Source: Streptomyces sp. NBC_01294
GTDB lineage: Bacteria; Actinomycetota; Actinomycetes; Streptomycetales; Streptomycetaceae
Assembly (NCBI RefSeq): GCF_035917235.1
Contig: NZ_CP108423.1
Span: 5,361,501 to 5,425,500, forward strand
DNA: 64,000 nucleotides
Reading direction: 5' to 3'
The position numbers were made by a program, and so were the translations under genes. This document shows, piece by piece, positions 5,926-23,888 of the stretch (its first letter is position 1; each line of letters starts with the position of its first letter). The notes under the pieces were generated by a model. It had not been told where the DNA came from. It searched no databases and worked only from the letters and a program-made list of their open reading frames with translations.

Positions 5926-6653
5926 CCGATCAGCTGCGCTTCGCCGATTCCGGGGAGGCGGCGGACCTCGCCGCCTTCCTGGGCCGGCTGGTGCACTACG
6001 ACCGCGCCGCCGCGGTCCGCCTCCAGGCGGGCGGCGGCGCGCTCGCCGTTTTCGGGCGCCCGCCGTCCTTCGAGGTCCTGGCCATCCGCACGGTGCGGCT
6101 CGCCGTGCCCGTCGCGGCGCCGCTGGACCTGACGGTGTCCGCCGGTGAGCTCCTGGAGTCGGTGGACGAGGCCTCGGCCGCGGCCACCGTGCCCGGGGCC
6201 GTCACCGGACCGCCCTGGACCGGGGTGCTCCCGCCCCGCGGCGGCTGGCGCCGCCTGCCGGGGCTGCCCGGCCCCGAGGCGATCGGGGAGGCCGTCGCGG
6301 CCGCCGTCGCCGAGTTCCGGGCCCGCGACGAGGCCCTGCCCGTGCAGCACCGGACCCGTTCCGAGCGCGACCGCATCGGCCGCGAGATCTGGTCCCGCAC
6401 CCTGGGCGACACCGAACTCCCGCTGCGCGCCGTGCACGCCTCGCAGTCCCTGGGCTTCCTGCGGCCGGTACGGGCCGCCGTGCCCGCCCCCGCGGCCGCC
6501 CCCGGCTCCGCCGCCCCCGCTCCCGCCTCCGCCCCCGTGGCGCTGCTCTCCGCCGGGAGCTGGCTGCGGCTGCGCACCCCGTACGGCTCCGTCGCCACCC
6601 GCCGCCCCGGCGCCACCGGCGGCCTGGGCGCCCTCCAGGTCCGGCCGGTCTGA
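5922..6653 (+). CDS. Conserved actinobacterial protein of unknown function
   Basis: A 243-residue protein translationally coupled to the thioesterase (ATGA overlap at 5922-5925). It begins MTDQLRFADSGEAADLAAFL, has a mixed alpha/beta N-terminal part, a region rich in Arg and Glu (HRTRSERDRIGREIW), then an Ala/Pro linker at about residues 190-210 before a short C-terminal segment. No signal peptide, membrane segment or catalytic motif is visible. Position after ettA and a thioesterase suggests a housekeeping protein, but I cannot name a function. Confidence 0.8.
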   Translation: MTDQLRFADSGEAADLAAFLGRLVHYDRAAAVRLQAGGGALAVFGRPPSFEVLAIRTVRLAVPVAAPLDLTVSAGELLESVDEASAAATVPGAVTGPPWTGVLPPRGGWRRLPGLPGPEAIGEAVAAAVAEFRARDEALPVQHRTRSERDRIGREIWSRTLGDTELPLRAVHASQSLGFLRPVRAAVPAPAAAPGSAAPAPASAPVALLSAGSWLRLRTPYGSVATRRPGATGGLGALQVRPV

Positions 6654-6855
6654 CCCCGGGCCCGACGAGGGGCCCTGAGGGTGTGCGGCCAGGCCTTTGA
6701 TGGGCCGGCAGAGGGAAACCGAATCCATGTCGGACGTTCGAGAGCGCTTTGTGCTCACAGCCGTCCGTAGGTTTGCAGCGCGGCCGGGCCTCCGGCAGGC
6801 GGGTCCCGGGGCCCCCGGATCCACGGTGTGAGTACCGCACAAGGACGGAATCGGC

Positions 6856-7974
6856 ATGGCAATCCCACTGATCAGGACGGTCGCCCGGCTGGGCCTCTGC
6901 GTCGTCACGGCAATCGCCGTCTGTCCGCTGGTGCCGACGACGACGGCGGCGGCCGACGGGTCACGCGCCCTCGTGGTCCCCAAGGACTATCCGACCATCC
7001 AGGCAGCGGTCGACGCCGCCCGCCCCGGTGACCGGATCGCCGTCCGGCCGGGTGTCTACCGCGAGCAAGTGGTGATCGGCAAGGATGTGTCGATCACGGG
7101 CTGGGGCGACCAGAAGACGACGATTCAGGCTCCGCCGAAGCTCATCCCCGGCGACGACGGCGGCAACTCGATCGTCGAGATCCACAACGGCGCGTCCGTC
7201 TCGCTGTCTCGGCTCGCCGTCAGCGGGCCGGGCTCCGGCACGTGCGACAGCGGCGCACTCCGCTCCGGCATTCGCGTGCTCGGGGGTGCCCGTCTCGACC
7301 TCGCCCACGCTGCCGTCACCCACATCACCGACACCCCCGCCGCACCCTGCTTCCGCAGTGCGACCGCCGTTTTCATCGGAGAGATGCCGACCGGTAGGGG
7401 CTCGGCGACGATCCGTGACACCAAGATCACGGGCTACCAGGGCGCAGGCGTGGTCGTCCTCAACCAAGGGTCCACCGCCACCGTCGAGCACAGCACCGTC
7501 ACCGGGCACCGGACGCTGTCCACCGACGGCATCGAGTTCGCGGCCGGCGCGGTCGGCCGCGTCACCCGGAGCACCATCAGCGACAACGGGTGCCGGGAGC
7601 CCGACCCGGGCTGCGGCCCCGACTTCTTCAACGAGTTCCAGCACGCGGGCATCGCCGCCGACACGCCGGGCACCGTCCTGCAGCACAACTGGATCGTCGG
7701 CAACCAGGTCGGGATCTACGTGGCCGGCGTGGGGATCGACATCGCCCACAACGCCATCCAACGCAGCTCGTACGTCGGAATCGCCCTCCAGGACGGTTCG
7801 TTCACAGTCCGCAGGGACCGGATCCAGGGCGGGGTGCACGGCGTCGCGGTCATCGCAACCGAGGTCGACACGAACGCGGTGCTCGAAGGTGTGAAGATCA
7901 CACGGACGTCGGGCGCGCCGGTACAGACCTTCGAGTGTTGCGGGTTCACCGCCACGGCGACGGTGAAGCCGTAA
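6856..7974 (+). CDS. Secreted right-handed beta-helix protein
   Basis: A 372-residue exported protein. The N-terminus (about 33 residues: charged start, hydrophobic LGLCVVTAIAV, then TTTAAADG) is a clear signal peptide. The mature part opens with YPTIQAAVDAARPGDRIAVRPGVY, the classical start of NosD/pectate-lyase-like beta-helix (PbH1) proteins, followed by repeated G-x-x-I/V-coil turns. Such folds are found in carbohydrate-active and surface proteins, but no lyase catalytic set is evident. The ATG at 6856 has AAGGA upstream. About 200 bp separate it from the previous gene, so it likely has its own promoter. Confidence 0.85.
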   Translation: MAIPLIRTVARLGLCVVTAIAVCPLVPTTTAAADGSRALVVPKDYPTIQAAVDAARPGDRIAVRPGVYREQVVIGKDVSITGWGDQKTTIQAPPKLIPGDDGGNSIVEIHNGASVSLSRLAVSGPGSGTCDSGALRSGIRVLGGARLDLAHAAVTHITDTPAAPCFRSATAVFIGEMPTGRGSATIRDTKITGYQGAGVVVLNQGSTATVEHSTVTGHRTLSTDGIEFAAGAVGRVTRSTISDNGCREPDPGCGPDFFNEFQHAGIAADTPGTVLQHNWIVGNQVGIYVAGVGIDIAHNAIQRSSYVGIALQDGSFTVRRDRIQGGVHGVAVIATEVDTNAVLEGVKITRTSGAPVQTFECCGFTATATVKP

Positions 7975-9620: not shown

Positions 9621-10616
9621 TCAGCCGCGGCGGATGGTGATGGTGGTCCAGGCACCCACGTGGACGCGGTCGCCGTCGGAGAGCGGCACCGGGACGTAGG
9701 GCTGGATCGGCTCCTCGCCGCCGTTGATCGTGGTGCCGTTGGTGGAGTTCTGGTCCACCACCGCCCAGCTGAGGTCGGGCTGCTGGACGAGGACCGCGTG
9801 CTGGTGGGAGACGCCCGGGTCCTCCGGGGGCACCGACAGGTCGATGTCGGGGGACTCGCCCGTGGAGGCGCGGCGGCGGCCGATGGTGATCTGGCCGCCG
9901 GACAGCGGGAGGTGCTGCTCCGGGGAGTAGGCGGGCAGGTTGAGCCCGGCCGCCTCGGGGCCGCTGCGCTGCATCATCGCCATGAAGTACGAGCGGTCGG
10001 GGCCGATCGTCGCGGTCCAGGCCCCGCCCTGCATCGGGAAGGACTGGTGCTGCGGCGGAGGCTGCTGCTGGTACTGCTGCTGCGGAGGCGCCTGGTACTG
10101 CTGCTGCTGCGGGGGCTGCTGCTGGTACTGGGGCTGCGGGGTCTGCTGGTACTCCCGCTGCGGCTCGTGCGCGGGCGGCGGCAGCAGCCAGTCGTCCTCG
10201 CGCTGGAGCGGCTCGGCCGGCCGGTTGACCCGGGACGGCCGCGAGCCCTGGTACTCGAAGTGGTCCTGCGTGTAGGTCCCGGGAGCGGGCACGGGCGGCG
10301 GCGGGGGCGGGGCACCGGGACCCGAGCCGACGCCCGTCGCCTGGGGCCCCGGGTCCGGGGCCGGCGGCGCGTACGAGGTCGCCGAACGGGTCAGGAAGTT
10401 GTACCGGCACTCCTCGCAGAACGGGGCCATGGCCTCGCGCGGGGTGCGGCACTGCGGGCAGAGCTCGGCCTGGGCGGTCGGGGCACCGGCGGACGGGGGG
10501 AAGCCGTAGCCGTAGGAGGGCACCGCGGGCGGGCCCTCCGAGGCAGCCATGCGGTGGCCGCAGACCTCGCACCAGTCGTCGGAGGCGGACTGGTGCCCGT
10601 TCGGGCAGGTCGGCAT
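9621..10616 (-). CDS. FHA-domain protein with two N-terminal zinc ribbons
   Basis: A 331-residue cytoplasmic protein, last in the pknG operon. Residues 1-25 form one zinc ribbon (CPNGHQSASDDWCEVCG) and about 50-70 a second (LCPQCRTPREAMAPFCEEC). A long Gln/Pro linker follows, including runs such as QYQQQPPQQQQYQ. The last 95 residues are an FHA domain: IGRRR, the SHQHA pair and the STNGT loop that read phosphothreonine. Unlike GarA/OdhI, no ETTSVF-type phospho-site is visible at the N-terminus. I chose ATG 10616 because GGGGGAAG precedes it; ATG 10652 is also open. Probably a reader or substrate of the kinase encoded upstream. Confidence 0.88.
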   Translation of the reverse strand: MPTCPNGHQSASDDWCEVCGHRMAASEGPPAVPSYGYGFPPSAGAPTAQAELCPQCRTPREAMAPFCEECRYNFLTRSATSYAPPAPDPGPQATGVGSGPGAPPPPPPVPAPGTYTQDHFEYQGSRPSRVNRPAEPLQREDDWLLPPPAHEPQREYQQTPQPQYQQQPPQQQQYQAPPQQQYQQQPPPQHQSFPMQGGAWTATIGPDRSYFMAMMQRSGPEAAGLNLPAYSPEQHLPLSGGQITIGRRRASTGESPDIDLSVPPEDPGVSHQHAVLVQQPDLSWAVVDQNSTNGTTINGGEEPIQPYVPVPLSDGDRVHVGAWTTITIRRG

Positions 10617-10663
10617 GGCGGCGCTTCCCCCTTCTTCTCCCTGCGTCATCACGTCAGGTCTTC

Positions 10664-11989
10664 TCAGGTCTTCTTCACTCGGACGGTCTGTGTCGAACGC
10701 GTTTCAAGAGTCATCTCGTCGGCATCGGCGACCTTCGCTTTCAGCCGCACAGTACCCGCCACCGCGTCCACGACATCCACCACCTTCGCAAGGAGTCTTG
10801 CTGTGTCGGCGTTCCCGGAGACACTCGCCAGCTGTACCGCGCGCCCCAGTTTGGCCGTGGCGCCGTCGACATCGCCCAGTTTGCGGGCTTCGAGGCCCTG
10901 CTGGATAGCCTGCGCCAGCTCCGCCTGCCCCGTGTAGTGGGCGACCTGCGGGTTGATGGCGGTGGACGCGGCCAGATCGGTCGTCCACACCGCGCGCACC
11001 AGGCCCTGGGACAGGACGGTCGCGGCCCCGCCGGCCGTTCCCGGCAGGACGAGCGTGGCGCGGGCCGCGAGCATCTCCTGGCCGACGGCCGCCCCCGGGA
11101 CGCGGACGCACACGTGGTACTCGCGGGACTCGTCGCCCCACGACCCGGTCGGGTAGTCCCCGGCGCGCGGGCCCGCCTCGGTGCGGCGGGGTGTCAGGTC
11201 CTGGACGGTGGGCGCGACCTGCTTGACGTACTGGATCTCCACGCCCACCGGCGTCCACAGCCGCAGCGAGACGTCCGCGACCTCCTTGCCCATGACGTTC
11301 TCCATCATGAGCGTGAAGTCCTCGGCGAGGTGGGCCGGGTCGGCCACGATGTCGGCGGAGCCGAGCAGCGCGCTCGCGATCCCGGTGACCTCCTTGACCT
11401 CCCAGTCCGTGCCCACCCCGCGGGCGTCGCAGGTGAAGCGCCCGGCGCAGGCGTCGAGAGTGGCGCGGAGCACGGCCGGCTCCTCGTGCTCGTTGCGTCC
11501 GTCGGTGAGCAGGATGCCGTGCCGGATGGCGGCGGTGGACTGGCGCAGCAGGCCGTCGGCCAGGCGCAGCCAGGTGCCGATGGCGGTGCCGCCGCCGGCG
11601 GTGAGCCCGCGCAGGGCCTCCTTGGCCTGGGCGCGGGTGGCCGGGTCGGCCACGGCGAGGCGGCCCTGGCCCGGGTAGACCTCCTTGGCCACGTGCGTAC
11701 CGGCGATCACCGCGAAGCAGGTCCCGTCGCGCAGGGTGTCGACGGCGGCCGCCGTGGCCTCGCGGGCGCCGCGCATCTTCTCCGGCGGGTACTCCATGGA
11801 GCCCGAGCAGTCGACCATGATCACAACGGCTGCCGTGCCCTCGGCGGCCGCCGCGCGGGTGGCGGTGGCCCCGCCGGTGGCGGTCACGGTGACGATCGCG
11901 TGGACGTCCCGCCCGCCCTCCGGGAGGAACTCGTTCTGGTACACCTCCACGCTGAAGCGCGGGGCGCTCGGCTTGGCGAAATTCGCCAT
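10664..11989 (-). CDS. VWA-domain protein with complete MIDAS site
   Basis: A 441-residue protein with a von Willebrand A domain from about residue 50 to 235. The metal site is intact: D60-C-S-G-S64, a Thr in GGGTAIGTW and an Asp in LLTDGRNEHE. A beta-rich region (about 245-350, with DLTPRRTEAGPRAGDYPTG) and a C-terminal helical part (AQAIQQGLEARKLGDVDGATAKL) follow. There is no signal peptide, so it is cytoplasmic. It lies 33 nt downstream of the PP2C gene and 47 nt before the FHA gene. VWA partners of PP2C phosphatases and kinases occur in TerY-P type triads; here it may scaffold the PknG pathway. Confidence 0.88.
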   Translation of the reverse strand: MANFAKPSAPRFSVEVYQNEFLPEGGRDVHAIVTVTATGGATATRAAAAEGTAAVVIMVDCSGSMEYPPEKMRGAREATAAAVDTLRDGTCFAVIAGTHVAKEVYPGQGRLAVADPATRAQAKEALRGLTAGGGTAIGTWLRLADGLLRQSTAAIRHGILLTDGRNEHEEPAVLRATLDACAGRFTCDARGVGTDWEVKEVTGIASALLGSADIVADPAHLAEDFTLMMENVMGKEVADVSLRLWTPVGVEIQYVKQVAPTVQDLTPRRTEAGPRAGDYPTGSWGDESREYHVCVRVPGAAVGQEMLAARATLVLPGTAGGAATVLSQGLVRAVWTTDLAASTAINPQVAHYTGQAELAQAIQQGLEARKLGDVDGATAKLGRAVQLASVSGNADTARLLAKVVDVVDAVAGTVRLKAKVADADEMTLETRSTQTVRVKKT

Positions 11990-12022
11990 CGATGGGACTC
12001 CTAGGGGGCTCGGGCAGGCGGG

Positions 12023-13612
12023 TCAGACCTGCGGGCGCGCTTCCACTTCCGGTTCCGGTCGTGCCGCCGGGCCCGGCTCCGCCGCGGGTCCCGGTTCCTG
12101 CGTGGCGAACGGCACGACGGCCACGGTGACGTTGTCGTGGCCGCCGCCGTCGAGCGCGTGTCCCACCAGCACCTGCGCGCTGTGCAGCGGGCGGACCGCG
12201 GCGTCGGCGGGCAGCACCTGGGCCATCTCCCGCGCGGACTCCGCGTAGTTCCACAGTCCGTCGGTGCAGACCACCACCACACCGGGGTGGTCCGGCTTGA
12301 AGGTCGCGGTGTGCGGTTCGAGTTCGTACGCGTCGGCGCCCAGCCACCCGGTGATGGCGTGCGCGCGGACGTCGGCGTAGGCCTCGGCCTCGCCCATCAG
12401 GCCCGCGGCGACCATCTGGGCGGCCCAGGAGTCGTCCTCGGTGAGGCGGCGGGGCAGGGCGGCCCGGTCGTCGGGCACCCAGTACGCCCGGCTGTCGCCC
12501 ACCCAGCCGATGGTGAGCAGGCCGCCGCTGACGACCGCGCCCACCAGGGTGCAGGCGGGGGCGTTCTGCGCGCCGGGGACCTCCGGGGCCAGCGCGTTCA
12601 CCGCGGCCGCGGCGGCCAGGATCGCCTCGTGCATGGCCTCCTGGGGGTGGGTGCCGCGGGGCAGCGCTTCGAGCAGCGCCTCGTTGGCGGCGCCGGCCGC
12701 GGCGGCCGAGGCCTCGTCGGGGCGGCTCGCGGAGGAGACGCCGTCGCACACGATGGCCACGGTGGCGGCGGAGCCGTCGGGCAGGGCGGTGGCGGCCACC
12801 GCGAACGAGTCCTCGTTGCGGTGGTGGCGCAGCCCCCGGTCGCTGACGGCGGCGACGCTCCCGAGCTCCTCTTCGAGGTGGTCGCGCTCCCGGGGCTGTG
12901 CGTGCCCGCAGTGCTCGCAGTACCCGTCGGTGTCGACGTGTCCGGCCCGGCAGGCGACGCACGTCTTCCCGCCCTCCGCCGCGCCGGGCTGGGGCGGGGT
13001 GCCGTACGCCGGCTCGGGGGCGGGCTCGGCGGCGTACGGGTCGCCCGCGGGCTGCGCGGGATACGCGGTGCCCTCCGGGGGAGTGGCGTCGCCGGGCAGG
13101 TCGTACCGGGCGGCCTGGGGCGCCTGCGCCCCGGCGCCGTACGCATGCTCCGCGGCGCCCCACGGCGTCCCGTCCGGCGGCGTGGCGGTGTCGTACGGGT
13201 CCTCGTGGCCGGCCGCCGCGTACGGGGCTCCGGCCGGGCCCGGTGCGGATTCCGCCGCCGGTTCCGCCGGGGCCAGCGCCCAGTCGGCGGGGTCGCCCAC
13301 CAGCGTCGGCGCGGCCGCGGCCACGCTGCCCCAGCCGGGGGCGGGTTCGGCGGCGCCGTGGGAGACGCCGGGGGAGGCACTGGGGGCCGGGACCCCGTAG
13401 CCGCCCGCGGCGGGGCCCGCACCCGGTCCGGCGGCGACCGGCGGCGCCGGGGGAGCCGGTGGCGCCTGCGGGATCGGGAGGGTCGGGTGGTCCCTGGACG
13501 CAGCCGGGGGAGGAGCGGTCACGGCGTAGCCGCAGACGCCGCAGAAACGGTCACCCTCCTCCAGGGGTTCCGCGCAGCTGGGGCAGCCCGACAGCCGATG
13601 CATCGACATCAC
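12023..13612 (-). CDS. PP2C-family Ser/Thr phosphatase with zinc ribbons
   Basis: A 529-residue protein. An N-terminal zinc ribbon (C10-P-S-C13 to C24-G-V-C27) is followed by a Pro/Ala/Gly linker of about 180 residues, a second ribbon at 218-235 (CVACRAGHVDTDGYCEHC), and a PP2C domain from about 250 to 500. Metal-binding motifs are SDRG, RNEDSF, VCDGVSS (D290), GWVGDSRAYW, CTDGLWN and GGHDNVTV, so it should be active. The GTG at 13612 directly abuts the pknG stop codon; ATGs at 13609 and 13603 are alternatives. Tight coupling makes it the likely antagonist of the kinase. Confidence 0.92.
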   Translation of the reverse strand: MMSMHRLSGCPSCAEPLEEGDRFCGVCGYAVTAPPPAASRDHPTLPIPQAPPAPPAPPVAAGPGAGPAAGGYGVPAPSASPGVSHGAAEPAPGWGSVAAAAPTLVGDPADWALAPAEPAAESAPGPAGAPYAAAGHEDPYDTATPPDGTPWGAAEHAYGAGAQAPQAARYDLPGDATPPEGTAYPAQPAGDPYAAEPAPEPAYGTPPQPGAAEGGKTCVACRAGHVDTDGYCEHCGHAQPRERDHLEEELGSVAAVSDRGLRHHRNEDSFAVAATALPDGSAATVAIVCDGVSSASRPDEASAAAAGAANEALLEALPRGTHPQEAMHEAILAAAAAVNALAPEVPGAQNAPACTLVGAVVSGGLLTIGWVGDSRAYWVPDDRAALPRRLTEDDSWAAQMVAAGLMGEAEAYADVRAHAITGWLGADAYELEPHTATFKPDHPGVVVVCTDGLWNYAESAREMAQVLPADAAVRPLHSAQVLVGHALDGGGHDNVTVAVVPFATQEPGPAAEPGPAARPEPEVEARPQV

Positions 13613-16600
13613 TCACACCCACGTCCGGGGACGGAAACGGTTTGCCCGCTCCACCAGTTCGATCCTCTCCTCGCCGCGCCGCGCCAGCCGTGCGAGAACG
13701 CGGTACGAGCGCTCCAGTCCGAAGCGCAGGCCCTGCTCGTCCAGTTGGCTGCCGAGCAGCGAGGTCCGGCCGGGGTCGGAACCCCGGCTACCCGACAGTA
13801 CCCAGTCCAGGGCCGAGCCCAGAACCTCCGTCGCGAGCCGTTCCTGCCGTTCCGGGTCCAGCCCGAACCGCCGCAGGGCCTCCACCTGGTCGGCTGCGGC
13901 CCCCAGATCGGCCAGCAGCGGCTCCTGCGGGGACCGGTCGCGCAGACGTGCGCGTACGGCCGCCACCCGGGCGGCGGTGTAGTGGATCGACGCCTCCGGT
14001 ACGGACTCCAGCGTGCGCACGGCTCCGTCCCGGTCGCCCGCGGCCAGCTGGACCCGGGCGAGCCCGAAGGCCGCGCTCACGAATCCGGGGTCGGTGATCC
14101 ACACGAGGCGGTAGTACTCGGCGGCGTTGTCCAGCTGGCCCAGCACCTCCGCGCACAGCCCGAGGGCCAGCTTCGGTGCGGGCTCGCCGGGGAAGGCGTC
14201 GTAGATCGCGTCGAAGGACAGGGCCGCTATCTCGTTGTCGCCGGTGGCCAGCGAGGCGATGCCGCGGGCCCACACCACCCGCCAGTCGTCCGGGTGCAGG
14301 GCCTCCAGCTCGGCCAGGGTGCGCCCGGCCGAGGGCAGCTCGCCCAGCTCCAGCCGGGCCCGCAGCTCCCGCAGCCGCAGCTCGGCCGAGTCGGACGGCG
14401 CCGCGCCCAGGGCGCCCAGCAGGTCGCCCGGCGCGGAGGCCAGCAGTCCGGTCAGGAAACCGGCGTTCGGGTCGCCCGCGTCCACGAGCGGCACGGGCAG
14501 GGCCAGCGCGGTGTCGCGTGCGGTGGCCGCTCCCGCGAGTGCCGGCGGAGACACGGGGGCGAGCACCGCACCCGCACCCGCACCCGTGGCCGCACCCGCA
14601 CCCGCACCCGCACCCGTGGCCGGAGCCGACGGCGTCCCCGTGGTCGCGGGCCCCTGCCGGGGGCCCGGTACCGGTGCGGCCGCCACGTGCGTGGCCGTGC
14701 TCCCGAGCGCGGGCAACGGCGCACCCCAGGCCGACGCGGCGCCACCGGCCACCAGCGGGCCGGCGCCTCCCGGCGCCCCGGACACGGGCGTGCCGCCCGG
14801 AGGCGTGGTGCCGAGGTGCGTGGGCGCCCACGGTCCGGAGCCTCCGACGGGAGGCGTCGAGGCCGAGCCCCCGGCCGCCCCGGGCGCCTGCGCCCACGGA
14901 CCGGGCGCCCCGCCCGGTCCTGCGGCCGGAGCCGCCCCGGGCAGAGCCGTGCCACCAGGCGCGTGTGCCCCGGTCCGGCCTGCCGGCCTGGTCTTTCTGC
15001 CCGGCGGGGTACCGCCGGGCTGTCCGCCCGGGCCGGGCTGCCCGGCCGCGGCGGAGGCCCGGACGGACGCGCCGCGGCCGCGCGCGAACAGCCCGCCACC
15101 CCGCCGGGAGGCGAACGGCCGGGAAGCGACCGGCCGGTAGCCCAGGAGGGACACGGCCGTCCCCGGCGCGTCGGCGAAGAGCCGGGTGTCCGGAACCCGC
15201 AGCTCCGGGCCGAAGAGGGTCGACAGCTGCGGCCGCGGCCGGCCCGTCTGCAGCGCGACCACCTCCCGCAGCACGCCCGTCAGCTGGTCCGCCATCTCCT
15301 GCGCGGACGCGAACCGCCGCCCCGGGTCCGGGTCGGTCGCCCGGACCAGCAGCCGGTAGAAGGACTCGTACCGCCGGAACACCTCGATGTGCTCGGGGTC
15401 CGGCAGCGAATCCACGAACACGTTGGTGTAGCCCTGGAAGTCGAAGGTCAGGACGGCCAGCGTCCGCGCCACCGTGTAGAGGTCGGAGGCGACCGACGGG
15501 CCCAGCTCCGCGACCTCCGGCGCCTGATAGCCCACCGTGCCGTAGATGGCCGACTCCTCGTCGTCCATCCGCCGCACCGCGCCCATGTCGATCAGCTTCA
15601 GCTGGTCCTGCTGCTGGATGGCGTTGTCGACCTTGAAGTCGCAGTACAGAAGGTTTCTGCTGTGCAGGTGACCGAGCGCCTCCAGCGCCTCGATGCCGTA
15701 CGCGCAGGCCTGCTCCACGGGCAGCGGGTCACGCCGCCCGTCCGGCCGGCGCCGCTCGTTCGCGATCTCCTTCAGCGACTTGCCGCCGACGTACTCCATG
15801 ACGATGTACCCGTCCAGCGAACCGGTCCGCTGGTCCAGGTGCTCGACGAAGTTGTAGATCCGCACGATGTTGGAGTGCTCGATCTCCGCGAGGAAGCGCC
15901 GCTCCGAGATCGCGGCCTCCATCGCGTCCTGGTCCCCGGTGTCCAGCAGGCCCTTGAGCACCACCCACCGGTCCGCGACCGCCCGGTCCACCGCCAGGTA
16001 CACCCAGCCGAGTCCGCCGTGCGCGAGGCAGCCCGCGACCTCGTACTGGCCGCGCACCACGTCGCCGGGGTTCAGCTTGGGCACGAAGGAGTAGGGGTGC
16101 CCGCACTTGGTGCAGAACCCTTCCGTCCGCCCCGGCCGGTCCCCCCGGGCCCGGCCCACCGGAGCCCCGCAGTCCGAGCGCGAGCAGAACCGCTTGCGCT
16201 CCGGCACCTCCGGGTTCTCCAGGACCGCCGCCGAAGGATCCGGACGCGGCACCTCCGGTACGTTGACCAGCCCGGCCCCCAGCCGGCTGCGGCCCGAGGC
16301 CGCCGAGCCCGAACTGCGCACCGACACCGACCGGGTGGACGCCGTCCCCGGCAGCGACCGCGACAGCCGCCCCGACACCGAGCGCCGGGAGGAGGAGGAC
16401 CGGGAGGAGCGCGCCGAGGCCGAGGACCGTGCCGAACCGTGGGACCCCTGCGAGCCCATCGACCCCCGGGACCCGCCGGACCCCAGGGAACCCCGGGCCG
16501 CGCTCGTCATCCCCGTCGGCGGCGACACCAGCTCGTCCGCACCCGCCGCGACCGCGCCGATCGGCGCCAGCCCGCAGGTGTCGCAGTACACCTCGCCGCC

Positions 16601-16663
16601 GCCCATGTCCTCGTACGCCCCCGGGCAGCCGGGGCGAACGCACGCGGTTCCGATCAGGCTCAT
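13613..16663 (-). CDS. pknG: Serine/threonine protein kinase PknG
   Basis: A 1016-residue soluble kinase. Order: zinc ribbon (C8, C13, C27, C30); a Ser/Arg/Gly-rich tail at about 52-130; a rubredoxin-like module (C160, C165, C184, C187); the kinase domain from about 205 to 480; a long Gly/Pro/Ala linker; and C-terminal TPR-like helices after about 690. PknG features are LAHGGLGWVYLAVD, Lys237 in VVLKGL, the non-RD loop YCDFKVDN (D342) and LIDMGAVRR (D359) in place of DFG. In mycobacteria PknG phosphorylates the FHA protein GarA/OdhI to set TCA flux in response to amino acids sensed by GlnH/GlnX. The mycobacterial enzyme is about 750 residues; linkers account for the excess. Its ATG overlaps the upstream stop by 4 nt. 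Confidence 0.93.
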   Translation of the reverse strand: MSLIGTACVRPGCPGAYEDMGGGEVYCDTCGLAPIGAVAAGADELVSPPTGMTSAARGSLGSGGSRGSMGSQGSHGSARSSASARSSRSSSSRRSVSGRLSRSLPGTASTRSVSVRSSGSAASGRSRLGAGLVNVPEVPRPDPSAAVLENPEVPERKRFCSRSDCGAPVGRARGDRPGRTEGFCTKCGHPYSFVPKLNPGDVVRGQYEVAGCLAHGGLGWVYLAVDRAVADRWVVLKGLLDTGDQDAMEAAISERRFLAEIEHSNIVRIYNFVEHLDQRTGSLDGYIVMEYVGGKSLKEIANERRRPDGRRDPLPVEQACAYGIEALEALGHLHSRNLLYCDFKVDNAIQQQDQLKLIDMGAVRRMDDEESAIYGTVGYQAPEVAELGPSVASDLYTVARTLAVLTFDFQGYTNVFVDSLPDPEHIEVFRRYESFYRLLVRATDPDPGRRFASAQEMADQLTGVLREVVALQTGRPRPQLSTLFGPELRVPDTRLFADAPGTAVSLLGYRPVASRPFASRRGGGLFARGRGASVRASAAAGQPGPGGQPGGTPPGRKTRPAGRTGAHAPGGTALPGAAPAAGPGGAPGPWAQAPGAAGGSASTPPVGGSGPWAPTHLGTTPPGGTPVSGAPGGAGPLVAGGAASAWGAPLPALGSTATHVAAAPVPGPRQGPATTGTPSAPATGAGAGAGAATGAGAGAVLAPVSPPALAGAATARDTALALPVPLVDAGDPNAGFLTGLLASAPGDLLGALGAAPSDSAELRLRELRARLELGELPSAGRTLAELEALHPDDWRVVWARGIASLATGDNEIAALSFDAIYDAFPGEPAPKLALGLCAEVLGQLDNAAEYYRLVWITDPGFVSAAFGLARVQLAAGDRDGAVRTLESVPEASIHYTAARVAAVRARLRDRSPQEPLLADLGAAADQVEALRRFGLDPERQERLATEVLGSALDWVLSGSRGSDPGRTSLLGSQLDEQGLRFGLERSYRVLARLARRGEERIELVERANRFRPRTWV

Positions 16664-18051
16664 GCGTCCTCCTTCCCCGGCCCGTCGGGCCGGAACTGCT
16701 CAGGCAGGTGCTCCGGTGGCTGCGGCGCCAGCGACTCCGCCGTCGCCTGCTGGTAGCGCAGGACGGCCTGTTCCGCGGCCCGCAGGTCGCAGGGCGCGCT
16801 CCACAGCATCCGCCGGGCCGTGTCGTACCGCTCGATCAGCAGGGGGTCCTCCGCCATCCCGTGGCGGGCCACCTTCGCCTTGTACGCGTCGAGCCGCCCG
16901 CGCAGCTCGGCCCGTACGGCCAGCGGCGCCGTCACCGCCGTCAACGATTCACGGGCCCGGCGCAGTTCCTCCTCGGCCCGCTCCTCCAGGGATTCCAGCA
17001 GGGGCGACAGCCGGTGCCAGCGGGCCTGGCGCCGGTGCTCGGCCGCCGCCGCGAGCTGTTCCTGCAGCACCGTCGGCGGGCCGCTGACCGCGGGCACCTC
17101 GGACGCGGCGATCTTCGCCAGCACCTCGCCGCGCGCCGTCCGCGCCTCCGCCAGGGTCCGGTCCGCCCGCGAGAGCACGTCCCGCAGGCTGATCAGCCGC
17201 TGCTCGGCGTCCTGCCGCACCGCCAGGACCGCCTCGACCTCACGGCGTACGTCCTCCAGCGCCAGCGCGGCCCGGTCGTAGCGCCCGGTGTCCGGCCGGC
17301 CGCCGCCGGGCGGCGAACTCCCCGGCGCCGGCAGCCAGAACGCCAGCGGATCCGCGATCACCTGCGCCCGCAGCTGCGCCAGCTCGGCGGTGATGTCCTC
17401 CAGGTCGTCGCCCGAGGGGTGCTCGCCCGGGCGCACGCCCACCGAGTGCGCCAGCGAGCGCGTGCGGTGCAGCTCGGCGCCGAGCAGGTCGATCCTGGCG
17501 GGCAGCGCCGACCACACGGCGTCGGCGGCGACCACCACGTCCAGCGACCGCGCGTACAGGTCGTTCATCCGGGCCACCAGCTCGGCGAGCGAGAGCCGCT
17601 CGGCCAGCGCTACGCCCTCCGCCGCGGCCCCGGCGATCAGCACACCGGGCCCGCGCAGCCGTTCGGTCAGCTCGATCAGGTCCTCGCGGTTCGGCCAGCG
17701 GCGCCGCTCCCGGACCTCCCGGGCGGCCGTCAGGGCCCCGCTGTACGCGTCGAAGTACGTCCACAGCCGGGTGATGTCCGCGTCGGCGACCACCCAACGC
17801 TCCTTGGTGACCCCGGTCAGCGCGGCGCCTTCCAGCAGCCGGCGCCCGGCGTGGTCCTGGAGGGCGAGCAGCGAGGTCTCGACGGCCTCGTGCTCCGCGC
17901 CCAGCCGGGTCAGGGCGCGGTCGACGCCGTCCCTGTCCATCACTGCCGACCACGCCTCCACCGACCGTGCCTCCGCTTCCGCTGCCGCCTTCGTGTCCGC
18001 CTCCGCCTCCGTGTCCGACCCCGCGCCCGGTTCCGGCCCCGAAATCGCCAC
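16660..18051 (-). CDS. Coiled-coil protein of the pknG operon, unknown function
   Basis: A 463-residue soluble, almost entirely helical protein rich in Ala, Arg, Glu and Leu, for example EVRREVEAVLAVRQDAEQR and LEERAEEELRRARESL, suggesting extended coiled coils. The first 30 residues are acidic and low-complexity (GSDTEAEADTKAAAEAEA). There are no membrane segments or catalytic motifs. It sits 4 nt after glnH and overlaps pknG by 4 nt, between the extracytoplasmic sensor genes and the kinase. That position suggests an adaptor linking membrane sensor to PknG; I infer this only from gene order. Confidence 0.82.
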   Translation of the reverse strand: MAISGPEPGAGSDTEAEADTKAAAEAEARSVEAWSAVMDRDGVDRALTRLGAEHEAVETSLLALQDHAGRRLLEGAALTGVTKERWVVADADITRLWTYFDAYSGALTAAREVRERRRWPNREDLIELTERLRGPGVLIAGAAAEGVALAERLSLAELVARMNDLYARSLDVVVAADAVWSALPARIDLLGAELHRTRSLAHSVGVRPGEHPSGDDLEDITAELAQLRAQVIADPLAFWLPAPGSSPPGGGRPDTGRYDRAALALEDVRREVEAVLAVRQDAEQRLISLRDVLSRADRTLAEARTARGEVLAKIAASEVPAVSGPPTVLQEQLAAAAEHRRQARWHRLSPLLESLEERAEEELRRARESLTAVTAPLAVRAELRGRLDAYKAKVARHGMAEDPLLIERYDTARRMLWSAPCDLRAAEQAVLRYQQATAESLAPQPPEHLPEQFRPDGPGKEDA

Positions 18052-18055
18052 CGCC

Positions 18056-19171
18056 TCAGCCGTCCCGGTACTTGGGTGCGGGCGGCGCGGACACGCCGGG
18101 CAGCACGGGCTGCAGGTGCTTGAGGTACGCCTTCATCCACGGGCTGTCACTGCCGCCCGCGCGGTAGTTCTCCAGCACCTTGTTGACGCGGCGGACCAGG
18201 TCCGACGCGTCCTTGTTCATCGCCACCCCGTAGAACTCGCGGGTGAAGGGCGAGCCCACCAGCTGCACCGCGGGGTCCTGCGCGGCCTGGCCGGCCGCGA
18301 GGGCGTTGTCCGTGATGATGCCGTCCACCTCGCCCAGCTGGAGCCGGACCAGGCAGTCGAGCTGGTTGGCCACGGTGACCGGCACCGAGCCGTACGACTG
18401 GGCCTTCAGCGCCGCCTCCGCCGTGGAACCGGCCGCGAAGCAGATCCGCTTGTCCTTCAGCGAGGTGTCGTACCCGGTGATCGGCGAGCCCTTGGGGGCC
18501 AGCACCTGCTGCCCGGCCTCGAAGTAGGCCGTCGAGAAGGCGACGTCCTCCAGCCGCTTGCAGTTGATGGTCATGGTCCGCACGACGATGTCGACGCGGC
18601 CCTCCTGCAGGGCAGGGATGCGCTGGCTGGTGGGGATCGCCCGGTAGATGACCGCGTTCTCGTCGCCCAGGATGTCCTTGGCGATGGCCTTGACCAGGTC
18701 GATGTCGAAGCCGTCCAGGCGGCTGCCCTCGGCCGTCTGGTTGCGGTAGCCCCAGCGGAAGCTGTTCTGGTCCACGCCGGCGACGAGCTTGCCCGCAGCC
18801 TTGATCCGCGCGATGGCCGCCCCGTCCACCTCGGCCGGGCGCAGGCTGGCCTCGGGGTCCTGGCAGGTGTCGGTGAGGACCCACGGTGCGGCCGGGGCCG
18901 CCGCCATGGCCGCGGGCCTGCGGACCGGCGGCGCGCCCGCGTCCGGCGTCGCGTGGGCCAGCGGCAGCAGCACGACCGCGGCCGTCATCGCACAGGCGGC
19001 GGCCATCGCGCTCACCCCGCCCCAGCCGCGCAGCCGGCCCGCCGCCCGCCGTATCCCGGACACCGCGACCGGAGCCGCCTCGCGGCCCTCGAAGCCGCCG
19101 CGACCCGCACGGCCTTCGCGGCCCTCGTAACCCTCGTGACCTTCGGCGGCCCGCCTCGCTCGTATCCGCAT
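18056..19171 (-). CDS. glnH: GlnH-like amino-acid-binding protein with signal-anchor
   Basis: A 371-residue SBP_bac_3-family protein. The binding domain begins near residue 110 (IARIKAAGKLVAGVDQNSFRWGY) and contains GFDIDLVKAIAKDILG, RVDIVVRTMTINCKR and GEVDGIITDNALAA, typical of glutamate/aspartate binders. The N-terminus is odd: about 50 charged residues with EG(R/Y)-type repeats precede a hydrophobic segment at about 52-73, and no lipobox Cys follows. It could be a membrane-anchored rather than lipid-anchored sensor. ATG 19171 lies 5 nt after the glnX stop and overlaps GGTGAG. In mycobacteria GlnH binds Asp and related amino acids and signals through GlnX to PknG; no ABC permease genes accompany it here. 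Confidence 0.85.
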   Translation of the reverse strand: MRIRARRAAEGHEGYEGREGRAGRGGFEGREAAPVAVSGIRRAAGRLRGWGGVSAMAAACAMTAAVVLLPLAHATPDAGAPPVRRPAAMAAAPAAPWVLTDTCQDPEASLRPAEVDGAAIARIKAAGKLVAGVDQNSFRWGYRNQTAEGSRLDGFDIDLVKAIAKDILGDENAVIYRAIPTSQRIPALQEGRVDIVVRTMTINCKRLEDVAFSTAYFEAGQQVLAPKGSPITGYDTSLKDKRICFAAGSTAEAALKAQSYGSVPVTVANQLDCLVRLQLGEVDGIITDNALAAGQAAQDPAVQLVGSPFTREFYGVAMNKDASDLVRRVNKVLENYRAGGSDSPWMKAYLKHLQPVLPGVSAPPAPKYRDG

Positions 19172-19176
19172 CGCTC

Positions 19177-20562
19177 TCACCTGTACTCCGAAAGCCTGCG
19201 CCCGATACCGAGCAGAGCCGCTGCCGCGCCGACGACCACCAGGATCGCGGACCCCGTCACCAGACCGCCCAGCGCGCCGATCCCGTCCCGGGCCGCACGG
19301 GTGAACTCCCGCTGTTCGTGGGCCACCGCCAGCTCCAGCGAGGCGTCCACCGTGTCGAAGGCGGCCCCGCTGCTCTCCTTGTGCTTCGCGTCCCCGACGA
19401 CCAGGGGCAGCGCGGCCTCGTAGTCCCCCTTCAAGTCCGCCTCCCGGGCCGCCGTGTGCCGCTGCTTCCACTGCTTCACGCCGTCCACGGCCCGGCTCAC
19501 GGGCGTCCGGCCGGCTTCGTCGTCGGCCAGTTGCAGCGCGGTCGCCAGTCCGGCGTCCAGCTGCTTCATGTTGTTCGTGAATTCCACGTCGTACTTGTCG
19601 GACTTCTTGTCGTCCGCCAGGACGGCGCCCCGCGCGATCAGAGTCAGGTTCTCACCGGCGCGCGCCTTCAGCGATGCGATCCGCGCGTCGTTGAGCACCT
19701 TCATGGACTCCTGCCCGTCCGCCCGGGCTTCACTCAGCGACGACCGGGCCACGGTGTGCCCCACGGCCAGCCACAGCAGGACCACCACCGACGCGGCCGT
19801 CGCGGCCATCAGTCCGTGGTTGAAGACCCGGTTGGTGTGCAGGTAGTTGCGCCGCTGCGCCCACACCAGGGCGGCGACCGCGAGCACGCCCAGACCGAGC
19901 GAGGCCAGCGGCCAGGAGCGGGCGTCGTCGTGGTCCGTGTAGAGCCGGCCGGTCTCCGCCTCGTACAGCCGCTGCGCGGCGGGCAGCAGCTGGGTGGTCA
20001 TCTGCTCGTTGGCGTAGCGGAGATAGGCACCGCCCAGCGGCAGGCCCTGCCGGTTGGTGGCCCGGGCCTGCTCGATCAGGCCCGTGTAGCGCGGCAGCTG
20101 CTCGCTCAGCAGGGCGATCTGCTCGCGCGAGTCCTCGTTGCCGCCGGTGTTGGCGGCCGCGCTGACCAGCAGCTTGGAGGCGTTGGCGATGTCCTTCTCG
20201 TACCGCTGGCGGACCTCGCGCGGCTCCTGACCCCCCAGGAGGAACCCGCTGGAGGAGGTCGTGTCGGCGTCCGCGAGGGAGCGGTAGATGCTCGCCGCGT
20301 CCGCGCTCAGCGGCTGGCTGCGGCCCACCACGTCGTCGGCCGCGGTCGACCGGCCGGAGATCTCCCACACGCTCACCGTGCCGAACAGCACGATCAGCGC
20401 GGCCAGGACGGCCCCGATGATCCGCAGCCGCCCCGGCTCGGTGGTCGCCGCCTCGCGCAGCCGCTCCACGCCCTCGGCCCAGGCGGTGCTGCGCCCCGGC
20501 GGCCCGTCGGGCGGCACGGAAACACCGCCCCCGGGCGCGGGCGCGCGTGATGTGATCGCCAC
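19177..20562 (-). CDS. glnX: GlnX-like four-helix membrane sensor protein
   Basis: A 461-residue membrane protein with hydrophobic segments at about 46-66, 218-236, 250-270 and 430-455. Segments 1/2 and 3/4 each bracket a helical, presumably extracytoplasmic domain of about 150 residues, resembling two tandem chemoreceptor-type four-helix sensor domains. No HAMP, kinase or transporter motif is evident. It is the first gene of a seven-gene minus-strand operon, and its order with glnH and pknG matches mycobacterial Rv0412c-Rv0411c-Rv0410c (from memory). The role inferred is to pass the GlnH ligand state across the membrane to PknG. GTG 20562 has GGGGGAGG 6-7 nt upstream; a 6-bp hairpin at 20591-20606 lies in the probable leader. 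Confidence 0.85.
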   Translation of the reverse strand: MAITSRAPAPGGGVSVPPDGPPGRSTAWAEGVERLREAATTEPGRLRIIGAVLAALIVLFGTVSVWEISGRSTAADDVVGRSQPLSADAASIYRSLADADTTSSSGFLLGGQEPREVRQRYEKDIANASKLLVSAAANTGGNEDSREQIALLSEQLPRYTGLIEQARATNRQGLPLGGAYLRYANEQMTTQLLPAAQRLYEAETGRLYTDHDDARSWPLASLGLGVLAVAALVWAQRRNYLHTNRVFNHGLMAATAASVVVLLWLAVGHTVARSSLSEARADGQESMKVLNDARIASLKARAGENLTLIARGAVLADDKKSDKYDVEFTNNMKQLDAGLATALQLADDEAGRTPVSRAVDGVKQWKQRHTAAREADLKGDYEAALPLVVGDAKHKESSGAAFDTVDASLELAVAHEQREFTRAARDGIGALGGLVTGSAILVVVGAAAALLGIGRRLSEYR

Positions 20563-20767: not shown

Positions 20768-21772
20768 TCATCCGAAATGGGTACGGAGTTTTTCGTGGGC
20801 CCCGGGAGGGGAGCCGACCGCGTCCAGGCCCAGGAGCCCGGCGCCCAGCACCGGCGGGGCCGTGATCACGGTGATCAGGGCGCGCGGGGCCCGGGCGGTG
20901 AGGGCCGTCGCGATCCGGTCGTTGAGCTGGGGGTGCCGGGCCGCCAGGACGCCGCCGCCCAGGACCACCGGGACCTCCTCGTCGAGCAGGCCCAGACGGG
21001 ACAGCGCCACCGACGCCATCGCCACGATCTCGTCCGCCTGGCGGTGCACCAGCGACAGCGCCACCGGGTCCCCGGCGGCCGCCACCGCGAACAGCACCGC
21101 GGTCAGCTCGTGCCGCCGGCCGTGCGGGACGCCGCCCAGGTGCAGCGCCTCGATCAGCGAGGCCATCGAGTCGTGGCCGAGGTGCGCGGGAAGCGCCCGG
21201 GCCAGCTCCGTCGCCCCGCCCCGCCCGTCCTCGGCCCGGGCCGCGCACCACAGGGCCTCCTCGGCCAGGCTGCCCCCGCCGCCCCAGTCGCCGGAGATCC
21301 GGCCGAGGGCGGGGAAGCGCGCGGTCCGCCCGTCCGGGGTCATCCCCACGCAGTTGATGCCCGCCCCGCACACCACCGCGACACCGCGGGGCTCGTCCAC
21401 GCCGGCCCGCAGGACGGCGAAGGTGTCGTTGCGCACGTCGGTGGCCGCGCCCCAGCCGCGCGCGCCGATCGCGTCCGCGAGCCGGCGCTCCTCCACCGGC
21501 AGGTCGGCGTTGGCCAGGCACGCCGACACCCGGGCGGCGTACGGGGATCCGGGCCCGGCCGCGGGCAGTCCGGCGGCGGCCACCGCCTCGGCGACGGCCT
21601 GTCCGAGGACGTCCACCGCCGCCTCCACGCCGTGGCGCGGAGGCTGGAAGCCCCCGGACCGGCCGGTGCCCAGCACGGTGCCGTCGGCGGCGATCAGCGC
21701 CACGTCGGTCTTGCTGTTGCCCGCGTCGACCGCCAGCACCGAAGGCAGGCTCATGCGGGTCGTGCGGGTCAT
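20768..21772 (-). CDS. csnK: Sugar kinase, BadF/N-acetylglucosamine-kinase type (CsnK)
   Basis: About 334 residues of an ASKHA-fold kinase. The phosphate-1 motif is LAVDAGNSKTDVAL near the start; GAGINCVGMTPDG, ISGDWGGGGSLAEEA and VVLGGGVLAARHP are typical of the BadF/BadG/GlcNAc-kinase family. ATG 21772 overlaps the csnH stop (ATGA); ATG 21754 (MSLPS) is an alternative. Last gene of the csn operon. By comparison with the S. coelicolor csnR-K cluster it should phosphorylate glucosamine or a derivative released from imported chitosan oligosaccharides. Its stop is about 200 bp from the divergent-side glnX promoter region. Confidence 0.8.
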   Translation of the reverse strand: MTRTTRMSLPSVLAVDAGNSKTDVALIAADGTVLGTGRSGGFQPPRHGVEAAVDVLGQAVAEAVAAAGLPAAGPGSPYAARVSACLANADLPVEERRLADAIGARGWGAATDVRNDTFAVLRAGVDEPRGVAVVCGAGINCVGMTPDGRTARFPALGRISGDWGGGGSLAEEALWCAARAEDGRGGATELARALPAHLGHDSMASLIEALHLGGVPHGRRHELTAVLFAVAAAGDPVALSLVHRQADEIVAMASVALSRLGLLDEEVPVVLGGGVLAARHPQLNDRIATALTARAPRALITVITAPPVLGAGLLGLDAVGSPPGAHEKLRTHFG

Positions 21773-23043
21773 GCCCACGGCAGGTGCTCCTTGTTGTGGG
21801 CGAGGAGCCGGTCGGTCAGCCCTTCGGCCAGGTCGAACTGGCCGACCAGCGGATGCGCCAGCAGCGCCTTGCAGACCCGATCGCGCCCGCCGCGCAGCGC
21901 CGCGTCCAGCGCGAGGTCCTCGTACGCCGTCACGTGCGAGAGCAGCCCGGCGAACAGCGGGTCCAGCCGCGGCACCGGCAGCGGCCGCGGGCCGGAGCCG
22001 TTCGTGCCCCGGACACGCGCCTGCACCTCGATGACCGCGTCGTCCGGCAGGAAGGGCAGTGTGCCGTCGTTGCGGGTGTTGACCACCTGGAAGGCCGGGC
22101 CGCCGTCGCCCAGCAGCGAGGCCGCCAGGTCCACGGCGGCCTCCGAGTAGAAGGCGCCGCCCCGCTTGGCCAGCAGGGCCGGCTTCTCATCCAGCGCGGG
22201 GTCCCCGTACAGGGCGAGCAGTTCTCGTTCCATCGCGGCGACCTCGGCGGCCCGCGAGGGCCTGGTGCCGAGTTCCCGTACGACCTCGTCGTGGGCGTAG
22301 AAGTAGCGCAGGTAGTAGGAGGGGACGACGCCGAGCCGGTCCAGCACCGCCCGCGGCAGGTGGAGGTCCGCGGCGACGGCCTCGCCGTGATCGGCCAGCA
22401 GCCGCGCCAGCAGGTCCTCGCCGTCGGGGCCGCCCCTGCGCACGCCGAACTCCCACGTGAGGTGGTTCAGGCCCACGTGGTCGAGGTGGACGTCGGCCGG
22501 TGCCAGCTCCAGCAGGGCCGCGAACTTCCGCTGGAAGCCGATGGCGACGTTGCACAGCCCGACCGCCTTGTGCCCGGCCTGGAGCAGGGCCCGGGTGACG
22601 ATCCCGACCGGGTTGGTGAAGTCGATGATCCACGCGTCCGGGCTGGCCCGCCGGACCCGCTCGGCGATGTCGAGGACGACCGGGACGGTGCGCAGCGCCT
22701 TGGCGAGCCCGCCCGCGCCCGTGGTCTCCTGCCCCACGCAGCCGCACTCCAGCGGCCAGGTCTCGTCCCGCAGCCGGGCGGCCTGCCCGCCGACGCGCAG
22801 CTGGATCAGGACCGCGTCGGCCCCCTCGACCCCCGCGTCGAGGTCGGCGGTGGTGGTGACGCGGCCGGGGTGTCCCTGCCGGGCGAAGATCCGCCGGGCC
22901 AGGCCGCCGATCAGCTCCAGCCGTTCGGTGGCCGGGTCGATCAGTACGAGCTCGCTGACGGGCAGGGTGTCGCGCAGCCGTGCGAAGCCGTCGATCAGTT
23001 CGGGGGTGTAGGTGGAACCGCCGCCCACCACTGCGAGTTTCAT
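21769..23043 (-). CDS. csnH: Family 4 glycoside hydrolase (CsnH)
   Basis: A 424-residue GH4 enzyme. GH4 glycosidases use NAD+ and a divalent metal in a redox-assisted elimination mechanism. Seen here are the N-terminal Rossmann motif VVGGGSTYTPELIDGF, the metal-binding Cys in VGLCNVAIGFQRK, the His in HVGLNHLTWEF and the NPVGIVTRAL region, all family hallmarks. ATG 23043 lies 5 nt after csnG. Many GH4 enzymes prefer 6-phosphosugars, but this operon has no PTS, so it likely acts on unphosphorylated glucosamine oligosaccharides inside the cell, with the downstream kinase acting afterwards. That order is inference. Confidence 0.85.
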   Translation of the reverse strand: MKLAVVGGGSTYTPELIDGFARLRDTLPVSELVLIDPATERLELIGGLARRIFARQGHPGRVTTTADLDAGVEGADAVLIQLRVGGQAARLRDETWPLECGCVGQETTGAGGLAKALRTVPVVLDIAERVRRASPDAWIIDFTNPVGIVTRALLQAGHKAVGLCNVAIGFQRKFAALLELAPADVHLDHVGLNHLTWEFGVRRGGPDGEDLLARLLADHGEAVAADLHLPRAVLDRLGVVPSYYLRYFYAHDEVVRELGTRPSRAAEVAAMERELLALYGDPALDEKPALLAKRGGAFYSEAAVDLAASLLGDGGPAFQVVNTRNDGTLPFLPDDAVIEVQARVRGTNGSGPRPLPVPRLDPLFAGLLSHVTAYEDLALDAALRGGRDRVCKALLAHPLVGQFDLAEGLTDRLLAHNKEHLPWA

Positions 23044-23048
23044 CGTCG

Positions 23049-23888
23049 TCAGCCTTTCACGCCGGTCAGGGTGACTCCCTCGACGAACGCCTTCTGGGCG
23101 AAGAAGAAGAGGACGATCACCGGTGCCATGACCAGCACGGTCGCGGCCATGGTCAGGTTCCAGTTGGTGTGGTGCGCCCCCTTGAAGGACTCCAGTCCGT
23201 AACTGAGGGTCCAGGCGGCGGGGTTGTCGGAGGCGTAGATCTGCGGGCCGAAGTAGTCGTTCCAGGCGCAGAAGAACTGGAAGAGCGCGACGGCGGCGAT
23301 CCCGGGCCTGGCCATCGGCAGGACCACGCGCAGCAGGGTGCGCACCTCCCCGCAGCCGTCGACGCGGGCCGCGTCCAGGTACTCGTCGGGGATGGTCAGC
23401 AGGAACTGGCGGAGCAGGAAGATGGAGAAGGCGTCGCCGAAGGCCATCGGGATGATCAGGGGCCACAGGGTGCCCGAGAGGTCGAGCTGCTTGGCCCAGA
23501 AGAGGTACATCGGGATGACCACCACCTGCGGCGGCAGCATCATCATGGCGATCACGAGGAGCAGGGAGAGCCGCCGTCCGCGGAAGCGGAACTTGGCGAG
23601 CGCGTACGCGACGGGCACGGAGGAGACCACGGTCAACAGGGTGCCGAGTCCGGCGTACAGCAGCGTGTTGCGCCACCAGGTCAGGAAGCCCGGGGTGTGC
23701 CACACGGCGGTGTAGTTGCCCCATTCCCAGGTGTCGGGCCACAGGTCGCGGGTCAGCGCCTGCCGGTCGCCCATCAGGGAGGTGAGGAGCAGGAAGACGA
23801 ACGGCAGGACGAAGAAGAGGGCGGCGGCCACGCCGAGCGCGTGCACCCCGACCCAGTGCAGGACCGCCTTGCGGCCGCGGGCGCTCAT
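23049..23888 (-). CDS. csnG: Carbohydrate ABC transporter permease (CsnG)
   Basis: A 279-residue inner-membrane permease of the MalG type with about six hydrophobic segments. The ABC-coupling EAA-like loop is DEYLDAARVDGCGEVRTLLR, followed by VLPMARPGIAAVALFQF. ATG 23888 overlaps the csnF stop by 4 nt. It forms the translocation pore with CsnF. No ATPase gene is in the cluster, so a shared MsiK-type ATPase elsewhere is expected, as is usual for Streptomyces sugar importers. Confidence 0.88.
   Translation of the reverse strand: MSARGRKAVLHWVGVHALGVAAALFFVLPFVFLLLTSLMGDRQALTRDLWPDTWEWGNYTAVWHTPGFLTWWRNTLLYAGLGTLLTVVSSVPVAYALAKFRFRGRRLSLLLVIAMMMLPPQVVVIPMYLFWAKQLDLSGTLWPLIIPMAFGDAFSIFLLRQFLLTIPDEYLDAARVDGCGEVRTLLRVVLPMARPGIAAVALFQFFCAWNDYFGPQIYASDNPAAWTLSYGLESFKGAHHTNWNLTMAATVLVMAPVIVLFFFAQKAFVEGVTLTGVKG

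Follow-up and report, generated by a model that had tools for sequence, protein, structure and literature searches.

The window analysed here, a stretch of 64,000 nucleotides (nt) spanning positions 5361501-5425500 of an 8.5 Mb genome whose nearest named relatives are Streptomyces, carries seven minus-strand open reading frames (ORFs) that run from 20562 down to 9621 in the order glnX, glnH, cc, pknG, pp2c, vwa and fha (Table 1). The genes are tightly packed, with intergenic gaps of 5 nt (glnX-glnH), 4 nt (glnH-cc), -4 nt (cc-pknG), 0 nt (pknG-pp2c), 33 nt (pp2c-vwa) and 11 nt (vwa-fha). An earlier note on this DNA had described the same order and the first four gaps, and measurement confirmed both.

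The product of the first gene matches the NCBIfam model NF058618 ('GlnX family signal transduction membrane protein') with 479 bits (cut-off 250) and stays below the cut-off of the narrower kinGactiv_GlnX equivalog (175 bits, cut-off 780); hydropathy gives four hydrophobic segments, and Pfam returns only a CHASE3 match below its cut-off. The top PDB relative of GlnH is Mycobacterium tuberculosis GlnH (6h2t, 4e-55). The long-helix protein cc has no Pfam or NCBIfam family above cut-off; its AlphaFold2 model (mean predicted local distance difference test score, pLDDT, 88.9) is built of long helices, contains a few short strands and found no match among PDB folds at E<=0.001, which does not in itself make it a new fold. 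PknG, which accounts for the one PknG rubredoxin match in the host genome, aligns with PDB 2pzi (8e-171) with the rubredoxin Cys and kinase Asp residues retained, and its N-terminus, read from the sequence, holds a Cys cluster and a Ser-rich segment.

In PP2C the three motif Asp residues that were checked are kept in all 107 sequences and the N-terminal Cys cluster in 106 of them. The VWA protein matches Pfam VWA_3 and VWA_3_C (the latter with 1.1e-19), and its metal ion-dependent adhesion site (MIDAS) residues D60, S62, S64, T135 and D163 are invariant in a 24-row alignment with a mean column identity of 60%; in its C-terminal tail S432 and T435 are each conserved in 100/102 sequences, T433 in 94/102 and T430 in 92/102. 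For the FHA protein (25-row alignment), residues R259, S282 and N305 of the phosphothreonine site are invariant or nearly so, C65, C79 and C82 are invariant and C16, C28 and C31 reach at least 90%, the first Cys pair being missing from two rows of family f93, which we take to be Frankiaceae.

Table 1. Genes of the cluster and features within them, in window coordinates
Feature	Position	Strand	Basis
glnX-like membrane signal transducer, 461 aa	19177..20562	-	NCBIfam NF058618 and hydropathy
glnH-like exported amino-acid-binding protein, 371 aa	18056..19171	-	SBP_bac_3 1.5e-23; hydrophobic segment 50-75
cc, long-helix protein, 463 aa	16660..18051	-	AlphaFold2 model
pknG, rubredoxin, kinase and TPR, 1016 aa	13613..16663	-	Pfam (TPR 1.8e-88)
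PP2C phosphatase, two zinc-ribbon-like Cys clusters, 529 aa	12023..13612	-	PP2C_2 7.5e-13
PP2C second Cys cluster, residues 218-235	12908..12961	-	Cys in 103/107; absent from 3 f93 rows
VWA protein, ArnB-like VWA, beta-sandwich and helical bundle, 441 aa	10664..11989	-	
VWA Ser/Thr tail, residues 427-435, candidate phospho-acceptor	10685..10711	-	conservation
FHA protein, two zinc-ribbon-like pairs at the N-terminus, then a Pro/Gln-rich linker and the FHA domain, 343 aa	9621..10652	-	FHA 6.8e-16
FHA-protein zinc-ribbon-like region, residues 16-82	10407..10607	-	Cys conservation

Distribution of the cluster and history of PknG

The seven-gene cluster is widespread, and it is found in nearly all Streptomyces relatives examined as well as in several related families. 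The named relatives are the best 80 of at least 550 confirmed matches (79 titled Streptomyces and one 'Actinobacteria bacterium') and are for that reason biased toward near kin; a search for the seven-gene order, which the earlier note had proposed, found it complete and on one strand at 70 of these 80 loci, a contig end interrupting the cluster in the other 10. Weak FHA matches inside the PP2C ORFs of L007, L049 and L052 were disregarded and these loci were read as contig-end truncations, and L137, L147-L154, L188, L189 and L199 were excluded from the family counts, being paralogues or separate copies. The grouping of sensor, kinase, phosphatase, VWA and FHA genes, which that note had described for this locus, thus extends well beyond the host genome.

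Outside Streptomyces the arrangement varies by family. In f115 all seven genes follow the Streptomyces order at 6/6 loci; the link of this family to Catenulispora comes from G730, whose VWA corresponds to PDB 4FX5, titled C. acidiphila. The order in f92, presumably Micromonosporaceae, is cc-pknG-pp2c-vwa-fha-glnX-glnH, complete at five of 14 loci, the other nine having eroded or degenerated or being interrupted by contig ends, and G537 retaining only pknG-glnX-glnH. Three of six f93 loci hold seven genes (with pp2c and vwa split over frames at L138), two are cut by contig ends, and in G455 cc, vwa and fha are absent beside pknG. Six genes are present in f7 (two loci) and f88 (one locus), where the cc match is weak or missing; in the two f108 genomes vwa and fha are placed 1.2 to 9.4 kb past pp2c; and a single locus of f43, which belongs to a different class, has all seven with glnX-glnH divergent. 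In the mycobacteria-like family f3, which we assume to be Mycobacteriaceae and where the mycobacterial GarA peptide was seen in G143, four loci consist of glnX-glnH-pknG only and two (G595, G669) carry the complete set; G669 holds a seven-gene and a three-gene locus, and G595 has further PknG genes. Both f10 loci have the three genes only.

In a 58-row PknG tree the four three-gene rows of f3 are sister to the two seven-gene rows of the same family (support 100/99) and lie inside the seven-gene diversity, and the two f10 rows are placed elsewhere, apart from f3. Forcing the six three-gene rows into one clade was rejected (approximately unbiased, AU, test p 0.0066; complementary test p 0.0073); the two tests share one likelihood difference and are therefore not independent. 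By this topology the mycobacterial three-gene operon is likelier to be a reduced form of the seven-gene cluster, which falls short of proof because the root was set at the midpoint and bootstrap values at several backbone forks are 86-95. The earlier suggestion that two designs had been merged at this locus is unsupported, since seven-gene loci are widespread and the mycobacterial three-gene loci nest among them.

The immediate flanks of the cluster are a BadF-like gene, 205 nt upstream of glnX on the same strand, and a convergent methyltransferase gene 15 nt from fha; both are in place at 52 of the 70 complete named loci, and the BadF gene adjoins the cluster at 64/70. Further upstream of glnX (window 20768-25363) the BadF-like kinase is followed, as judged by eye, by a glycosidase-like gene and sugar-type ABC permeases. 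A promoter and terminator scan was uninformative, giving 0 sigma-70-like sites and 2 terminator-like sites on the plus strand versus 1.3 expected.

GarA, the FHA protein and the GlnH pocket

The host genome encodes a GarA orthologue (L156) outside the cluster, with a zinc ribbon, the motif ETTS and an FHA domain, and with GarA PDB matches of about 3e-47. With the OdhI model it reaches 189.9 bits, slightly short of the 200 set as cut-off, whereas the operon FHA protein scores 20.5 and was on that ground rejected as a GarA orthologue. The operon protein is without ETTS, and the earlier remark that it lacks a GarA-like phospho-motif is borne out. An N-terminal zinc ribbon was also seen in GarA of Streptomyces and other families (L156, L201-L260), and it is absent from the three f3 sequences.

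One may ask if the operon FHA protein has replaced GarA as direct PknG substrate and regulator of the tricarboxylic acid (TCA) cycle, leaving VWA and cc as accessories. Such a replacement would fit the zinc ribbon and FHA domain that GarA of these families also has, and the docking of substrates to PknG via FHA, described in the accessible text of PMC8546545; it is nevertheless improbable, given the missing ETTS, the score of 20.5 bits against the 189.9 of the GarA orthologue, and the presence of GarA itself in every one of 60 genomes searched.

These 60 genomes were chosen from PknG-bearing, PknG-less and mycobacteria-like lineages. According to the available part of PMC2784874, PknG phosphorylates the first Thr of GarA/OdhI in Corynebacterium glutamicum and M. 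tuberculosis, and PknB the second. The second Thr is kept in 60/60 genomes; at the first position 26 genomes have Thr and 10 have Ser, and the other 24 have Val, Gln, Arg or Ala. The loss is distributed over f93 (11/11), f115 (5/5), f92 (7/20) and f7 (1/3), and because all 24 genomes concerned have PknG, the kinase is unlikely to act via this GarA residue in the lineages that lack it. Streptomyces GarA keeps the first Thr in 14/14 genomes, eight PknG-less ones included, and ETTS was accordingly rejected as a readout of PknG presence within this genus. The expectation that the output may differ from TCA control therefore gains from the other PknG families, where the PknG-type Thr is lost, and finds no help in Streptomyces, where GarA keeps it.

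The input side may also vary. The M. tuberculosis GlnH positions compared, as given in the consulted portion of PMC6069109, are R147, T162, R169, W232 and D250, with R147, T162 and W232 forming the pocket for the Asp/Glu side chain. Among 120 sequences (M. tuberculosis numbering) R147, T162, R169 and D250 are mostly kept, and host GlnH retains R147 and T162 and has Gln for W232. Trp occupies position 232 in f3 and f10 alone; it is replaced by Gln at 80/80 Streptomyces-type loci and by Tyr in 13/13 of f92. The ligand itself may be other than Asp/Glu.

Two halves and a possible phospho-switch

In a class sample of 393 genomes, scored at E<=1e-20 for the PknG TPR, E<=1e-40 for VWA and E<=1e-15 for cc, the three proteins occur in 148, 100 and 90 genomes, respectively. 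PknG accompanies VWA in 99 of the 100 genomes, the remaining one (G295) having broken remnants of both, and it accompanies cc in 87 of 90, the other three being PknG-less Streptomyces; 49 PknG genomes are without VWA at this threshold. The Fisher value for the co-occurrence ignores kinship and is not taken as evidence of function.

Eight of 134 genomes of the host genus have no intact PknG (G295, G590, G622, G767, G770, G794, G815 and G831); a few genomes whose TPR match is partial, G810 for one, stand outside this count, and G823 was rejected from it, as it carries pknG at the edge of a separate contig. When the kinase part of PknG was used as query, six of the eight gave no match, and G622 and G831 gave only distant kinases (33-35% identity). 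All seven PknG-less loci examined (all but that of G794, where no orthologous VWA was found) retain cc, pp2c and fha. Their vwa differs in state: G767, G770 and G831 have an intact gene, G295 and G815 have a remnant, and none was found in G590 or G622. The last pknG codons persist between cc and pp2c in G831 and G815, so that the pknG-less state is derived there. In G831 a short membrane-protein-like ORF (6162-6896, in L183 5929-7390) lies upstream of cc in place of the lost sensor genes.

The cluster is thus composed of two dissociable halves, since cc, PP2C and FHA remain in PknG-less Streptomyces, although these genomes are not many and some are closely related: glnX-glnH-pknG is lost as a unit and cc stays with the other half, which weighs against a strict unity of the seven genes. 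The idea of the earlier note that cc serves as adaptor between GlnX and PknG is weakened, and so is that of cc as a scaffold between them, because cc outlives both. That note had also named independence of PP2C-VWA-FHA from pknG in most relatives as what would speak against it; for the most part such independence was not observed (VWA without PknG in 1/100), and only a few Streptomyces show the halves part.

Other arrangements of these genes exist. Second PknG paralogues (L151-L154 in G796, G768, G775 and G805; L189 in G375; L199 in G543) adjoin a VWA paralogue and a GlnX-like gene at 6/6 loci, with a cc-like C-terminal piece at 4/6 and no PP2C or FHA matches, and represent another PknG-VWA arrangement. 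G455 of f93 has a separate pp2c-vwa-fha copy away from pknG (L188), in which the open frame matching VWA contains two TGA stops; further f93 genomes likewise hold such copies.

We give about an even chance to the reading that the cluster encodes a widespread, self-contained amino-acid-sensing phospho-switch, a VWA-FHA pair that PknG would drive and PP2C would reverse. By homology, exported GlnH would bind an amino acid and GlnX would relay its state across the membrane to the PknG TPR, as proposed for mycobacteria and corynebacteria. PknG would then phosphorylate its operon partners, most likely VWA, at Ser/Thr residues of its helical C-terminal region and its tail; the FHA protein may use its zinc ribbon for a loose hold on VWA that is not phosphorylated and its FHA domain for a tight hold on phosphorylated VWA, and the operon PP2C would undo the switch. 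We assign cc to the PP2C/FHA half, where it is probably a structural partner. The VWA-FHA complex, and not GarA alone, would be a PknG output, similarly to the archaeal ArnA-ArnB pair, with GarA as a second branch that would be full in Streptomyces and reduced to the PknB-type site where the PknG-type Thr is gone, and with the mycobacterial three-gene operon as a reduced form.

The strongest competitor holds that two independent units share the locus, GlnX-GlnH-PknG acting on GarA in the mycobacterial manner and cc-PP2C-VWA-FHA serving another Ser/Thr kinase, the two being linked only by cotranscription or by chance of inheritance. The behaviour of the PknG-less Streptomyces would follow naturally from such a separation, as would the mycobacteria-like loci that hold GlnX-GlnH-PknG without the other genes and the ETTS that Streptomyces GarA keeps. 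Yet the linkage survives gene-order rotation and divergent rearrangement across families, the complete set recurs in two mycobacteria-like genomes (L190, L191), VWA without PknG is almost never seen in the class sample, and the loss of the PknG-type Thr of GarA in 24 PknG genomes leaves PknG without that target there. We therefore consider two units rather unlikely, and rank them behind the phospho-switch.

More tentatively, and with somewhat less confidence than the switch itself, we propose that the ancestral output of PknG was a bacterial ArnAB-like VWA-FHA phospho-complex (resembling the Sec23/24 core) that had a phosphatase of its own and was switched by amino acids outside the cell, and of which the mycobacterial GlnX-GlnH-PknG-GarA system would be a derived, stripped-down version where GarA has become the main target. 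PknG is known mostly through GarA/OdhI in mycobacteria and corynebacteria. If its older setting is the seven-gene switch, unrecognised PknG substrates would be encoded next door, and bacteria would offer a genetically tractable counterpart of an archaeal nutrient switch.

Comparison with known systems

According to the accessible text of PMC6069109, Actinobacteria, Streptomyces included, conserve an operon of PknG with GlnH and GlnX. With the GlnX-GlnH-PknG-GarA/OdhI cascade of mycobacteria and corynebacteria the cluster shares adjacent genes for a GlnX-family protein, a GlnH-type protein and a PknG with rubredoxin, kinase and TPR, as well as GarA in the genome. It differs in the additional cc, PP2C, VWA and FHA genes, in the Gln that replaces W232 of GlnH in Streptomyces, and in the PknG-type Thr of GarA, which is lost in several PknG-bearing families.

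The TerY-P triad, which the earlier note had named as one of two designs merged here, consists of neighbouring kinase, PP2C and VWA genes. Sets of a zinc-ribbon kinase, PP2C and standalone VWA also occur in other actinobacterial systems (PMC7159879, in the part available), and both resemble the present locus in the adjacency of the three genes. A stress triad of TerY-P type that recruited PknG as its kinase would account for this adjacency and for the zinc ribbons; we regard it as very improbable, because VWA is a three-domain protein of ArnB type, PknG is complete, its rubredoxin and TPR included, and the two immediate flanks, to which the look for ter genes was confined, encode a BadF-like kinase and a methyltransferase instead. 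The GlnX/GlnH sensor is a further difference from the triad. After its own orthologue, PDB 4FX5, the nearest folds to VWA are ArnB (12% sequence identity) and vWA2, so TerY-P was rejected as the main parallel.

4FX5, the VWA of Catenulispora acidiphila, is an orthologue: the VWA of the seven-gene locus in G730 is identical to it except for the first few aligned (tag) residues. The consulted portions of PMC6509490 and PMC12852372 cite 4FX5 just for its structural likeness to ArnB/vWA2 and do not mention its gene neighbourhood, and among the papers listed from Creative Commons-licensed PubMed Central text, judged by their titles, abstract openings and consulted passages, none links PknG to ArnA/ArnB or to a cluster of PP2C, VWA and FHA. 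Were the phospho-switch true, this crystal structure would gain a biological context.

A further comparison is with the archaellum regulatory module ArnA-ArnB-ArnC-PP2A of Sulfolobus. The top PDB match of the FHA protein is ArnA, by a small margin, and the two systems have in common a protein of VWA, beta-sandwich and helical bundle with an intact MIDAS, an adjacent zinc-finger FHA partner, a Hanks-type kinase, a Ser/Thr phosphatase and a nutrient signal. The cluster is unlike the archaeal module in being bacterial, in its membrane-sensor input, in the extra cc, in the lack of an archaellum, and in having PP2C instead of PP2A. As its phosphatase is a PP2C and not the PPP-family PP2A, the cluster may be said to work like the ArnA-ArnB module without being a member of it.

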